31,700 bases of DNA, taken from the IMG/VR virus record IMGVR_UViG_3300037042_000544, positions 1 through 31,700 of that record, one strand, 5' to 3'. The notes beneath the pieces are model-generated. The model did no database searches. It was given only the letters and a program-made list of their open reading frames with translations, and was not told where the DNA came from. Each line of letters starts with the position of its first letter. Position 1 is the stretch's first letter. Source of the stretch: a virus. Both the position numbers and the translations under genes were made by a program. Below, piece after piece: positions 3-7,746 of this stretch.

Positions 3-200
3 ATGATAGCATCGTTGATTGCTTGGTTTGTCATGGAACAGTTTGAGATGGACTCGATGTATAAGGCAGTTGCTTATGGATTGGTTGGGTTAAATAGTCC
101 TGAGATTATAAATGGTGTTCTTAAAATAAGTGGGCAGTTTGCAGAAAACCCCATGTCATTCATAAAAAAAGAACAACCAAAACCTAAAAGGAAGCGATGA
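3..200 (+). CDS. Holin-like membrane protein, possibly 5'-truncated
   Basis: A 65-residue reading frame starts at the window edge, so the true start may lie upstream. Residues 3-11 are hydrophobic. A second segment around AYGLVGLNSPEIINGVLKI (24-42) has the small-residue-rich, membrane-compatible look of the C-terminal half of LydA/superfamily III-type phage holins. The protein ends in a basic tail (KKEQPKPKRKR), which normally sits in the cytoplasm. The stop overlaps the next start as ATGA (197-200), pointing to translational coupling. The following genes are lysis genes, which supports a role in inner-membrane permeabilization. The family assignment is tentative because only the C-terminal part may be visible; it could simply be a small membrane protein. 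Confidence 0.5.
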   Translation: MIASLIAWFVMEQFEMDSMYKAVAYGLVGLNSPEIINGVLKISGQFAENPMSFIKKEQPKPKRKR

Positions 201-853
201 AGAATATACTGCTAATAATCCTAACCGCTATTATACTATCGGTTGCAGGATTCGGAAAGTACGTTGAATACACTATCAATAAAACTGCTACAAGTATTTA
301 TGAAGACAGATTGGTTCCTCAACCATATTTAAGCAGGAAATTTGACTACTACGGGTCAACCATCCAAGACCAAATAAAAGTTATAAAGGGTGGTAAGATT
401 GACCTAATTGCTATCCAAAAAGAGAAGGACATCACCGACACGATGTGGAGGGCATATCTCAAAACATATCAAACGCCTGAAGAGAAAGAGGTAAGTGATA
501 AGGCACAAATGCACATTGATAGTGCTGATGCGTATTTTATCAAAATAACTGAGGATGGATATGTTACTGATGATGAGGCAAAGGAGATGGATGCAAGAAT
601 TTATCCTGTTCTTGAATACGTTAATGACTTGATTAATATTCAGACAACAATAGGAGCAAGGGATACGAAGGGTATGATTAACCTTCTTGACAAGTTTTCC
701 AACTTCATGATTGGAGCTATTGCTCTTGCTATTGCGCTTCTTGGTTCTATTATATATGACATGATTAAAAAGCCGAAGGTTGTAAAGAAGCCTATAAAGA
801 AAGCTGTAAAGAAGGTTGTAAAGAAGGCAGCACCTAAAAAGAAAAAGAAATGA
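197..853 (+). CDS. Two-TM protein with 4HB_MCP-like extracytoplasmic sensor domain
   Basis: 218 residues. An N-terminal membrane helix (about 3-20) is followed by a roughly 145-residue helical domain and a second membrane helix (about 170-189), then a very basic C-tail (191-218) made of KK(A/P)-type repeats. The helical domain starts with IYEDRLVPQPYL (34-45) and continues with a W-x-x-Y-L-x-T-Y segment (84-91), a TPEEKE turn, a YP helix start (136-137) and NDLINIQTT (143-151). This pattern is what I know from the four-helix-bundle ligand-binding domain of methyl-accepting chemotaxis proteins (4HB_MCP_1). HAMP and signalling domains are absent. The predicted topology is N-in, sensor in the periplasm, C-tail in the cytoplasm. 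It overlaps both neighbours by ATGA, so it is translated with the lysis genes. Function is unknown; a holin regulator or antiholin is a hypothesis. Confidence 0.65.
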   Translation: MKNILLIILTAIILSVAGFGKYVEYTINKTATSIYEDRLVPQPYLSRKFDYYGSTIQDQIKVIKGGKIDLIAIQKEKDITDTMWRAYLKTYQTPEEKEVSDKAQMHIDSADAYFIKITEDGYVTDDEAKEMDARIYPVLEYVNDLINIQTTIGARDTKGMINLLDKFSNFMIGAIALAIALLGSIIYDMIKKPKVVKKPIKKAVKKVVKKAAPKKKKK

Positions 854-1504: not shown

Positions 1505-1943
1505 TCTTTTATTGCTATTATTGGTTGGATGCAACCCGGTAAAACAGGTCCTTCGTGACCAAGAGAAGTTGGAGGAAGTGGCAAAGGTTGTGGTAAAAGG
1601 GGGGTGGTGCGCTAATGACACCACGTTTATTACAACATCAGATACGCTTGTTGAGGTGGACACATTGGTGCGTATTGATACGCTAACCGACACTTATGTC
1701 TTTAATGACACCGTTCACATCACCAAGTGGAAGACAAGGGATATTATTAAGTCTATAACAATACATGACACGATTAAGTCATTCATTGTTGATAACGCCC
1801 GTGTAAGGCTATTGCAGGCTGATAGCGTAAAATTTACTAACTTAGCGAATGATTATAAGGCGAAAGCCGATAGTCGTTTGAATTGGTTAATATTCCTTTT
1901 GGTGATTATTGCATTGTTTGTTTATTTAAAACTTAAAAAATGA
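1488..1943 (+). CDS. Unimolecular spanin (u-spanin) candidate
   Basis: 151 residues with both anchors expected of a u-spanin. There is a lipoprotein signal with lipobox LVGC (12-15, Cys15 to be lipidated for the outer membrane). A C-terminal membrane helix (about 132-147, WLIFLLVIIALFVYL) ends in KLKK and would sit in the inner membrane. The linking periplasmic part begins with a short helix (18-37) and then alternates D-T pairs with hydrophobic residues (D52, D58, D64, D68, D74), a beta-strand pattern. A charged helix (103-130) comes before the membrane anchor. Phage T1 gp11 has the same layout and fuses inner and outer membranes in the last lysis step. It overlaps the holin candidate by 17 bases and the M15 gene by ATGA. 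The assignment rests on architecture; u-spanins share little sequence. Confidence 0.75.
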   Translation: MKTKISLLLLLLVGCNPVKQVLRDQEKLEEVAKVVVKGGWCANDTTFITTSDTLVEVDTLVRIDTLTDTYVFNDTVHITKWKTRDIIKSITIHDTIKSFIVDNARVRLLQADSVKFTNLANDYKAKADSRLNWLIFLLVIIALFVYLKLKK

Positions 1944-2404
1944 AGCTTAGTGAACACCTTGACCTATCAGAAGTAATAAGGTCTGAATCTGCAAAACGTA
2001 ATGGCATCTCAAATATGCCAACAGCACAGCACATTGAAAACTTTAAGTTATTGGCAGAGAAAGTATTTCAGCCAATCAGAGAGCACTTCAGATGCCCTAT
2101 ACATATCTCAAGTGGATACAGGTCCAAGGAGCTCAATTCTATCATTGGGGGGAGTAGTTCGTCACAACATTGTACGGGCGAAGCGATTGACGTGGATATG
2201 GATGGTACGCCAAATGGCGTTACCAATAGGATGGTTTTCGACTACATCAAGGACAATCTTGAATTTGACCAATTGATTTATGAGTTTGGTGATGCAAACA
2301 ATCCTGATTGGGTTCATGTGTCTTACGAGTCAAGTGGAAAACAAAGGAAGCAAGTGTTAAAGGCGGTCAGAGTAAATGGAAAGACTCAGTACGTGGCAAT
2401 ATGA
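1940..2404 (+). CDS. M15-family peptidoglycan peptidase (endolysin)
   Basis: 154 residues, a single catalytic domain of the M15 (Peptidase_M15_3, D-Ala-D-Ala carboxypeptidase/endopeptidase-like) fold. Zinc and catalytic residues are visible: SGYRSKELN (58-66) contains the conserved Arg61, SSSQHCTGEAIDVD (73-86) carries the metal ligands His77 and Asp84, and DWVHVSY (123-129) supplies His126. The N-terminal segment LSEVIRSESAKRNGISN matches the usual start of phage M15 endolysins. It should cut peptide cross-links in the cell wall. No signal peptide or wall-binding domain is present, so it needs a holin to reach the wall. It is translationally coupled to the spanin (ATGA, 1940-1943) and closes the lysis cassette; 20 bases follow before the tail-fibre gene. 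Confidence 0.92.
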   Translation: MKLSEHLDLSEVIRSESAKRNGISNMPTAQHIENFKLLAEKVFQPIREHFRCPIHISSGYRSKELNSIIGGSSSSQHCTGEAIDVDMDGTPNGVTNRMVFDYIKDNLEFDQLIYEFGDANNPDWVHVSYESSGKQRKQVLKAVRVNGKTQYVAI

Positions 2405-5838: not shown

Positions 5839-5864
5839 ACAATTAAAAACAAATAAAAATGGCA
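5833..5864 (+). promoter_or_regulatory. A-rich translation leader shared with the capsid gene
   Basis: The 20 bases between the fibre stop and the DUF7936 start read ACAATT, AAAAAC, AAATAAAA. They align base for base with two single-base shifts to the 20-base leader of the major capsid gene (13830-13849). Both are preceded by GTT-TAA (last Val codon and stop of the upstream gene) and followed by ATGGCA. Bacteroidota initiate from A-rich, unstructured leaders, so this is read as a strong ribosome-loading site. Confidence 0.5.
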
Positions 5865-6209
5865 ACAACAAATTTTGAGTGGGTCATCAGCCAATTAAAT
5901 TGCGCTGTAGAATCAGAAGGACTTCCTGATGTAATCAATATGATTCATTGGAGGTATAACGCAACACAAGTGGATGGAGACAAGACTTGGTTTGCTGAGA
6001 CGTATGGTGCTACAGCCGTAGCTCAACCAAATCCACAAAACTTCATCCCTTACGCAGATGTAACTGAGGCTGAAGTGATTGGATGGTTAGAGGCAATCCT
6101 TCCTGTAGATGCTATGCAAGCAGGCTTGGAAGCTAACATTAACCTGCAAATCAACCCTGTTGAGGTGACACTCCCTCTTCCATGGGCAACAACCAATAAT
6201 TTAGTTTAA
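5859..6209 (+). CDS. DUF7936-like small virion-associated protein
   Basis: 116 residues. The pattern FEWVISQL, then IHWRYNAT, PYADVTEAEVIGWLEAIL and finally NPVEVTLPLPW (near 98-108) matches the small family I know as DUF7936. These proteins are common beside tail-fibre or capsid genes in podoviruses of aquatic bacteria. The domain is beta-rich N-terminally and helical C-terminally; no catalytic motif is visible. Its function is unknown in the family; a structural or decoration role is plausible. The start ATG is preceded by a 20-base A-rich spacer with no Shine-Dalgarno sequence. That spacer, together with the upstream GTT-TAA end and the following ATGGCA, is nearly identical to the leader of the major capsid gene at 13850. 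This suggests the product is made in large amounts. Confidence 0.65.
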   Translation: MATTNFEWVISQLNCAVESEGLPDVINMIHWRYNATQVDGDKTWFAETYGATAVAQPNPQNFIPYADVTEAEVIGWLEAILPVDAMQAGLEANINLQINPVEVTLPLPWATTNNLV

Positions 6210-6482: not shown

Positions 6483-6710
6483 CAAGATATAAGGAAAATA
6501 TCTGTTGGTCCCGACTATAAGGGTGGTGCTATGCACTACATTATAGGTCAAAAAATCTTGAACGAGACGAATGAAATACATCTTATTAAGTATGATGTAG
6601 ACAATAAATCGTTTAAGATTTACATAATCAACGATGGAAATGAAGTAATTCTTTGGAAGGAATTCAATTCCACAATCCCTGTATCTGTAGAATATAATAT
6701 AAACTACTGA
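6480..6710 (+). CDS. Small conserved phage protein of unknown function
   Basis: 76 residues, no signal peptide or membrane helix. The opening RKISVGPDYKGGAMHYIIGQ (5-24) and the end WKEFNSTIPVSVEYNINY (59-76) look like a family I have seen in Bacteroidota phages next to the GroES-like and oxygenase genes, with no known function. The middle (IHLIKYDVDNKSFKIYIIND) alternates hydrophobic and charged residues, suggesting a small beta-sheet protein. The stop and the next start share one base (TGATG at 6708-6712), so it is coupled to the gene at 6710. It opens the three-gene accessory block between the fibre and packaging genes. I cannot assign a role. Confidence 0.6.
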   Translation: MQDIRKISVGPDYKGGAMHYIIGQKILNETNEIHLIKYDVDNKSFKIYIINDGNEVILWKEFNSTIPVSVEYNINY

Positions 6711-7273
6711 TGAAATCTCCATTCAACTTCATAGCGAAGCCCATGAATGGTAAAAGATACGACAACACTAAGAACATATCAGGGGTTGAACTTATAGTTA
6801 GCACCTCAGAGGAAGACCATAAGTTTTCAAACAGGTATGCAGAAGTCGTAGAAGTACCATTAGGTTACGATGGACCAATCTCTAAGGGAGACACCCTATT
6901 GGTCCATCATAATGTATTTAAGTTTTATAATGACATTAAGGGCAATCAAAAAAGCGGTAGGTCTTTTTTCAAAAACGACTTGTTCTTTATAGAACCTGAA
7001 CAATTCTACCTATACAAAAAAGGTTCCACGTGGAACACTTATGATAGGTATTGCTTTGTTAAGCCTATAAAAGCAATAGACTCATACGTTAAGAAGCCAT
7101 TTACCCACGAACCATTGATGGGTGAGATGGTATATCCTAATGAATACCTTACCTCACAAGGGGTCAAAGCAGGTGACTTAGTCTGCTTCAAGCCGGACAG
7201 TGAGTATGAGTTTACCGTAGATGAACAGAAGCTTTACAGAATGTTTGACCACCAAATAACCATTATACTATGA
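6710..7273 (+). CDS. GroES/Hsp10-like putative co-chaperonin
   Basis: 187 residues. Two segments look like GroES-type beta-barrel halves. The first is RYAEVVEVP (42-50) followed by PISKGDTLLVHHNVFKF (56-72), i.e. the 'keeps P, then GD-x-V-h-V-H-H' layout. The second is GVKAGDLVCFKPDSEYEF (151-168), then LYRMFDHQITIIL (175-187), similar to the closing dI-x-A-I strand of Hsp10. Between them lie an aromatic-rich loop (FIEPEQFYLYKKGSTW) and VKPI. Phages such as T4 encode GroES analogues (gp31) that help host GroEL fold the large capsid protein; the same role is inferred here, given the capsid genes downstream. The gene overlaps its neighbours on both sides (1 base; ATGA 7270-7273). The fold call needs structural confirmation. 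Confidence 0.5.
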   Translation: MKSPFNFIAKPMNGKRYDNTKNISGVELIVSTSEEDHKFSNRYAEVVEVPLGYDGPISKGDTLLVHHNVFKFYNDIKGNQKSGRSFFKNDLFFIEPEQFYLYKKGSTWNTYDRYCFVKPIKAIDSYVKKPFTHEPLMGEMVYPNEYLTSQGVKAGDLVCFKPDSEYEFTVDEQKLYRMFDHQITIIL

Positions 7274-7746
7274 ATGTACTATTATTCGACAATGTTATTC
7301 AATCTCCGGTAGATTACGTTAAAGACATCCTAGACAATGACTTTGAAGACATCTATGATGGTGTAAATGTATTCAAGAACATACAAGCTAGAGACCATGA
7401 TGATGAGTTTGCTTTGTTTGTAAAGGACTTATTCTCTGATTATTTAATCAAGTGGAACTTCATTAGGAAGTCACCGTTGCATCAAGAAGAGCCGAACTTC
7501 ATACACAAAGATGATATGATGGGAGATGTTACTGCGGTTTTATACTTGAGTGGTAATCATCCCGACACTGATGGCACTACGCTATATGATGACAACGCCA
7601 AACCGGCTTGTGTTATTCACTCAAAGTTTAACAGGGCAGTTATGTTTGACTCCAATGTTCCTCATTCTAGGAACATATTTGACAACTTTGGAGAAGAGAA
7701 CAATGCTAGATTGATTCAAGTAATATTTCTTAAAAAGAAAAAATGA
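7270..7746 (+). CDS. 2-oxoglutarate/Fe(II)-dependent oxygenase
   Basis: 158 residues, about the size of a single double-stranded beta-helix (P4Hc-like/2OG-FeII_Oxy) domain. Iron ligands are visible as His79-x-Asp81 in NFIHKDDMM, followed by the strand VTAVLYLSG (87-95), and a distal His132 in NVPHSRN. Arg147 in NARLIQVIFL is placed to bind 2-oxoglutarate. The motif set H-x-D...H...R is complete, so an active hydroxylase is likely. The substrate is unknown: a virion protein, a host factor or a modified base are all possible. The ORF ends in four lysines and overlaps the terminase small subunit gene by ATGA (7743-7746). Its neighbour upstream is the GroES-like gene, with ATGA overlap. Confidence 0.82.
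   Translation: MNVLLFDNVIQSPVDYVKDILDNDFEDIYDGVNVFKNIQARDHDDEFALFVKDLFSDYLIKWNFIRKSPLHQEEPNFIHKDDMMGDVTAVLYLSGNHPDTDGTTLYDDNAKPACVIHSKFNRAVMFDSNVPHSRNIFDNFGEENNARLIQVIFLKKKK

Follow-up and report, generated by a model that had tools for sequence, protein, structure and literature searches.

A two-TM phage protein with a predicted chemoreceptor-type four-helix bundle, encoded directly behind LydA-type holins, as a possible holin partner

A 218-residue protein with a predicted periplasmic four-helix bundle (4HB) of the chemoreceptor ligand-binding type was found to be encoded directly behind a LydA-type holin in the lysis cassette of a virus (IMG/VR record IMGVR_UViG_3300037042_000544, positions 1 to 31,700; this 31,700-nucleotide stretch, analyzed as a whole, is referred to as the window), and this gene order was retained in every viral relative in which it could be checked. 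On the best-supported reading, which we rate at about even odds, the protein is a two-TM partner and regulator of the LydA-type holin and carries a periplasmic 4HB sensor. The arrangement is widespread and would add a new architecture to the known forms of holin-linked lysis control, in which a sensing role is plausible. To our knowledge, only a few phages (T4, ICP1, and N4) are known to tune lysis to their surroundings, and how they sense them is little understood. The pairing suggests that phages may sense an envelope signal before the host bursts, with a bacterial sensor fold at work without its usual signaling parts; a ligand-binding fold locked to a holin is a domain open to ligand screening and would make the question of what phages sense before lysis directly testable. 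The features of the region are listed in Table 1.

Table 1. Features of the holin-4HB region of the window, with the basis of each assignment.
Feature	Coordinates	Strand	Basis
LydA-type holin, C-terminal 65 aa; start beyond window edge	3..200	+	clusters with upstream genes of relatives
Proposed holin partner, TM-4HB-TM-basic tail, 218 aa	197..853	+	ORF, PF12729, structure model, viral relatives
TM1	206..256 (about residues 4-20)	+	hydropathy and conservation
Periplasmic four-helix bundle (predicted)	257..703 (residues 21-169)	+	model, PDB fold matches
YEDRLVP motif	299..319 (residues 35-41)	+	conservation
FDYYG motif	341..355 (residues 49-53)	+	conservation
TM2	704..760 (about residues 170-188)	+	hydropathy and conservation
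Lys-rich tail, predicted cytoplasmic	761..850	+	hydropathy/composition
Exported 8-stranded outer-membrane beta-barrel (predicted), 144 aa	850..1284	+	AlphaFold, fold matches
2-TM protein, second holin-like gene, 72 aa	1286..1504	+	TM segments; cluster 3, 55 members
Candidate unimolecular spanin, 151 aa	1488..1943	+	lipobox LLVGC near N-terminus, C-terminal TM
M15-type endolysin	1940..2404	+	PF08291 E 7.7e-19; PHROG endolysin E 6e-35

Hydropathy analysis of the 218-residue protein identified two transmembrane (TM) segments (residues 1-19 and 172-190) separated by a periplasmic stretch of about 150 residues, and only about 30 residues were found C-terminal of TM2, these last 30 including 16 Lys or Arg and no Asp or Glu. 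The ORF overlaps its neighbors by ATGA at both ends (197-200 and 850-853), as the sequence-only reading had claimed for the holin gene upstream and the exported-protein gene downstream. When compared with the Pfam family 4HB_MCP_1 (PF12729), the window copy scored below the cut-off and aligned over residues 4-100 only (E = 2e-4; 21.4 bits, cut-off 27), while six divergent relatives (L168, L170, L173, L178, L239, and L337) scored above it at 34.5-41.1 bits, nearly all of them over the full domain. Thirteen of 14 diverse family members matched PF12729 at E ≤ 0.1 and nine matched TarH. Neither HAMP nor MCPsignal was detected by the Pfam profiles in the window protein or in any of the 14 members; the protein is thus not an MCP in the sense of one carrying HAMP and signaling domains. 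The landmarks previously read as typical of 4HB_MCP domains were all present (YEDRLVP at residues 35-41, WxxYxxTY at 84-91, and INIQ at 146-149); DRL, T90, and Q149 proved to be family-wide, whereas W84 was phage-specific.

An AlphaFold model of the protein, of moderate confidence (mean pLDDT 78), predicted helices at residues 2-39/41-62, 70-89, 94-117, and 125-191, arranged as an antiparallel four-helix bundle that is flanked by the TM segments, the first and last helices continuing into TM1 and TM2. The comparison of residues 21-169 with 4HB_MCP domains that had been suggested earlier thus returned four helices and fold matches to chemoreceptor ligand-binding domains: the best PDB match was the chemoreceptor McpB (E 0.014), and others included the ligand-binding domains of Vc1313, Tar, and MCP2201, as well as OspC; TMt reached up to 0.68 among the matches to 4HB ligand-binding domains. 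Since no PDB fold match reached E < 0.01, these results support the fold class, and the structure search is not by itself proof; a PDB sequence search with the protein gave chance matches only. Overall, hydropathy and the model agree with the earlier description of a TM segment, a helical periplasmic domain, a second TM segment, and a Lys-rich tail, and the Pfam matches of the relatives together with the four-helical model support the assignment of the periplasmic domain as a 4HB_MCP-type bundle that lacks HAMP and signaling domains. The best viral structure match (BFVD A0A8S5L4P1) was a 4HB MCP-type protein named from the ssRNA phage SRR5466725_21, so that an RNA phage may have adopted this fold independently.

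Relatives were collected by iterated IMG/VR searches, which yielded 77 distinct viral 4HB proteins, the most divergent sharing about 38% identity, on uncultivated viral contigs of up to 322 kb. The same LydA-type holin gene was located immediately before the 4HB gene in all 76 relatives with the upstream side present; the two genes usually overlapped, in 40 cases by 4 bases. In the reverse count (best 80 of 175), 73 distinct holins had enough sequence after them to be scored and 72 were followed by a 4HB gene, some of these loci having been retrieved by the holin search itself. The intact holins of the relatives (111-131 aa) fall in the same cluster as the window fragment, have 2-3 TM segments by hydropathy, and match PHROG holin 6384 (E 5e-7) and, below the cut-off, the LydA holin family PF16083 (E 6e-5; 23.5 bits, cut-off 28.4). 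TTG was the sole possible start codon in 46 of 72 holins upstream of 4HB genes, as if holin translation were held low. Basic C-terminal tails were present on holins with a 4HB partner and absent from the partnerless L313 holin.

An endolysin was detected near the holin-4HB genes in 69 of 75 loci and was GH19-like in 45, M15 in 18, and T4-lysozyme-like in 6, where the GH19 and T4-lysozyme labels are presumptive, having been assigned by reading the sequences. On the well-supported branches of a tree of 74 4HB proteins, the M15 label changed at least five times and the lysozyme label at least twice; the figure for the GH19 label was higher but overestimated, owing to loci without a recognized endolysin. 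Pairwise distances between 4HB proteins correlated with those between holins (r = 0.94). As the distances correlate and the endolysin family switches often on the 4HB tree, it is the holin-4HB pair that is inherited and not the cassette, and the holin, the 4HB gene, and usually the barrel gene that follows appear to move among different phages as one unit. The synteny owes partly to common descent, yet the endolysin changes indicate that the surroundings are not fixed. The sequence-only reading had tied the gene to lysis and had named homologs scattered away from lysis genes as evidence to the contrary; none was found among the viral relatives, in which the gene keeps its place behind the holin amid three endolysin families. 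Acquisition of the 4HB gene by chance, as a 'moron', was rejected in view of the strict synteny. Values of dN were 0.07-0.11; dS was saturated, and no dN/dS ratio is given. In two loci (L109 and L110), the same triad was found beside unusual genes encoding Pro-Ala-rich proteins with one TM.

In the mechanism we propose, the 4HB protein would be translated right after the holin and would lie beside it in the inner membrane, where the bundle would read a periplasmic cue, whether a small molecule, the state of the wall or envelope, or incoming phage material. Helices 1 and 4 would relay the resulting change to TM1 and TM2, and these would restrain or release the holin, such that the output is direct in the membrane and not via a HAMP or signaling domain. 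We infer that the protein touches the holin, that it senses a ligand, and in which direction it acts; on the last point, an antiholin-like delay is favored by analogy, as (i) P1 keeps its antiholin gene behind that of the LydA holin in the same operon (PMC9025707); (ii) antiholins commonly have TM segments and are encoded near holins (PMC7182436, PMC11413866); and (iii) elsewhere a 4HB sensor without HAMP, GlnX, signals through contiguous helices 1 and 4 (PMC9769921). The 4HB fold is no proof of ligand binding. The ligand-binding domain of Vc1313 binds D-amino acids (PDB 8bsa, 8bsb), and by analogy these would be one sensible ligand class. A bolder form of the proposal, which we regard as possible though somewhat doubtful, is a ligand-gated holin, in which a chemoreceptor-type sensor is coupled straight to the holin and the timing of lysis follows an envelope cue, the sensor having come from growth of the periplasmic loop of a small 2-TM partner or from a host-derived 4HB fused into its slot.

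How such a sensor could have arisen is suggested by more distant holins, which were found with a holin profile weighted to a distant MAG copy. No profile-detectable 4HB was found behind these holins; the gene directly behind them encoded a 2-TM protein in 12 of 34 cases, compared with 34 of 426 (8%) other ORFs. These slot proteins were mostly 51-79 aa, and several had the same 4-base overlap with the holin gene. One of them, L468, is larger (198 aa) and has an FDWYG motif and a 4-base overlap with its holin; it could be aligned over its length to the phage 4HB profile (E 5e-7), and a weak match to PF12729 (0.012) was also obtained. Judged by these alignments, it appears to be an intermediate, a remote 4HB homolog in the holin slot. 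Further relatives of the L468 partner were searched for and only L468 itself was recovered. Given these short occupants of the slot, the 4HB resembles a periplasmic loop that has grown within a holin partner, and we read the series as a small 2-TM partner whose periplasmic part became, or gave way to, a 4HB domain. The short 2-TM proteins of the L482, L502, L516, and L481 group, which lie directly behind distant LydA-type holins, are possibly antiholins or co-holins of those holins.

The neighborhood alone cannot separate an antiholin from a co-holin, and the latter, while unlikely in our view, is to be taken seriously. As a co-holin, the 4HB protein would be a structural subunit for hole formation or depolarization and its bundle a scaffold or spacer and not a sensor. 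The near-obligate pairing with the holin is no less compatible with an essential subunit than with an accessory regulator, holin systems of two proteins exist in which the second protein is required for efficient lysis (PMC13056207), and the short 2-TM slot partners are too small for a sensor. However, the bundle stays recognizable as a ligand-binding-type domain across great divergence, and L313-type holins often lack a 2-TM partner, which indicates that the holin can work alone.

The genes downstream bear on another explanation, namely that the 4HB protein and the barrel form a unit that spans the envelope and disrupts the outer membrane or keeps out superinfecting phages, its link to the holin being a matter of operon economy. 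The AlphaFold model of the 144-residue barrel (pLDDT 83) predicted a signal helix and exactly eight strands, with fold matches to OmpA and OmpX. In favor of such a unit, the barrel gene came directly after 61 of the 72 4HB genes for which enough downstream sequence was present, usually overlapping it or nearly so, and 4HB and barrel distances were as closely correlated as those of the 4HB and holin (r = 0.94). Nonetheless, the barrel was missing in 11 loci, such that at least 11 distinct copies have the holin and manage without the barrel, and a spanin-like lipoprotein is encoded separately in the window and in many relatives; we therefore consider this explanation improbable. No spanin family match was found in Pfam or PHROGs for the 151-residue lipoprotein of the window, and in relatives another lipoprotein with this layout occurs (cluster 14). 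The 72-residue 2-TM gene is usually at another place within the same cassette in relatives. With the holin, this 2-TM gene, the spanin candidate, and the M15 endolysin around the 4HB gene, the earlier description of the region as a lysis cassette was correct.

Bacterial homologs of the 4HB protein were examined on Bacteroidota chromosomes. PF12729 was present in 103 of 247 Bacteroidota genomes, in many cases as standalone frames of about 210-240 aa. These frames are built as TM-4HB-TM, carry the landmarks DRL and Q-G, and have unrelated neighbors that include no lysis genes. The phage and bacterial 4HB profiles matched at E 1.5e-14 over 189 columns; in the same comparison chemoreceptor-type domains matched at 9e-12 and controls gave no match. 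When 17 phage representatives were compared with 12 bacterial standalones, D37, R38, L39, T90, E96, L145, Q149, and G153 were common to both, whereas T10, A17, G20, A31, P43, S46, FDYYG (49-53), W84, D111, N143, F167, N169, F170, G173, and S184 were conserved among the phage proteins but missing or infrequent in the bacterial ones; within this set, T10, A17, and G20 are invariant and FDYYG is nearly so. These phage-only residues are located in both TM segments and the middle of helix 1, as expected with a membrane partner that is missing from the bacterial homologs; the holin would be the obvious candidate for this partner. The standalones thus resemble the phage form in length, topology, profile match, and invariant residues and differ from it in having no lysis neighbors, no Lys-rich tail, and differently conserved TM residues. 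That the phage protein is a captured bacterial standalone that blocks or mimics a host homolog, unrelated to lysis, would fit how common such standalones are and the profile match, yet is very improbable given its fixed position behind the holin in every relative that could be tested, the phage-only conservation in the TM segments and FDYYG, and the absence of lysis genes beside the bacterial copies. Among the bacterial standalones (L417-L436), a subgroup carries a C-terminal IPEPPS(L/M)N.

The proposed holin partner was also compared with known systems. Chemoreceptors with 4HB_MCP_1 (McpB, Tar, Vc1313, and MCP2201) share with the phage protein the profile, a bundle between TM segments, and the DRL/T/E/LxxxQxxxG residues; unlike them, the phage protein has no HAMP or signaling domain and has phage-only TM and FDYYG motifs, a basic tail, and a place in a holin operon. 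P1 LydA/LydB is similar in that a LydA-type holin and a dedicated partner gene lie in one operon and could time lysis; however, LydB is predicted to lack TM segments and is without known homologs (PMC9025707), in contrast to the two TM segments and periplasmic bundle found here. In T4 T/RI, too, the holin is controlled from the periplasm by a protein that could sense superinfection, as is proposed here; RI, however, is made with a signal peptide that can be cleaved off, and it binds the periplasmic domain of T (PMC11413866), whereas a large periplasmic domain is missing from the present holin. The analogy to T4 RI drawn in the sequence-only reading holds as a functional likeness only, as no match of the 4HB protein to antiholin families, including T4 RI and P1 LydB, was found in Pfam or PHROGs. 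GlnX of Corynebacterium glutamicum also has a periplasmic 4HB without HAMP and is thought to signal via continuous helices to a partner, but it has two bundles and four TM segments and acts on the kinase PknG (PMC9769921). A full-text literature search returned no paper on a 4HB_MCP protein linked with a holin.

In cultured phages (INPHARED), no match was found for three phage 4HB proteins, one bacterial 4HB, or the close-family holin, and for a distant holin the sole match was weak and was to a Pseudoalteromonas phage protein annotated as a holin. The sequenced phages nearest by terminase were without the holin-4HB module. A genome scan with the close 4HB family found nothing, and one with the holin found a single MAG contig with phage-like tail genes and no 4HB neighbor; the holin profile recovered only this contig and two marginal matches in 395 Bacteroidota genomes, and this near-absence indicates that integrated copies are not common. 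The terminase of the window was closest to that of an uncultivated podovirus (78%) and those of Flavobacterium elemoviruses (45%), and the host is therefore probably a Bacteroidota bacterium; the module is carried by many uncultivated aquatic phages, most likely of Bacteroidota. Beside the terminase, the window encodes a DUF7936 protein (5859-6209), a GroES-like co-chaperonin (6710-7273), and a protein with a weak 2OG-Fe(II) oxygenase match (7270-7746).
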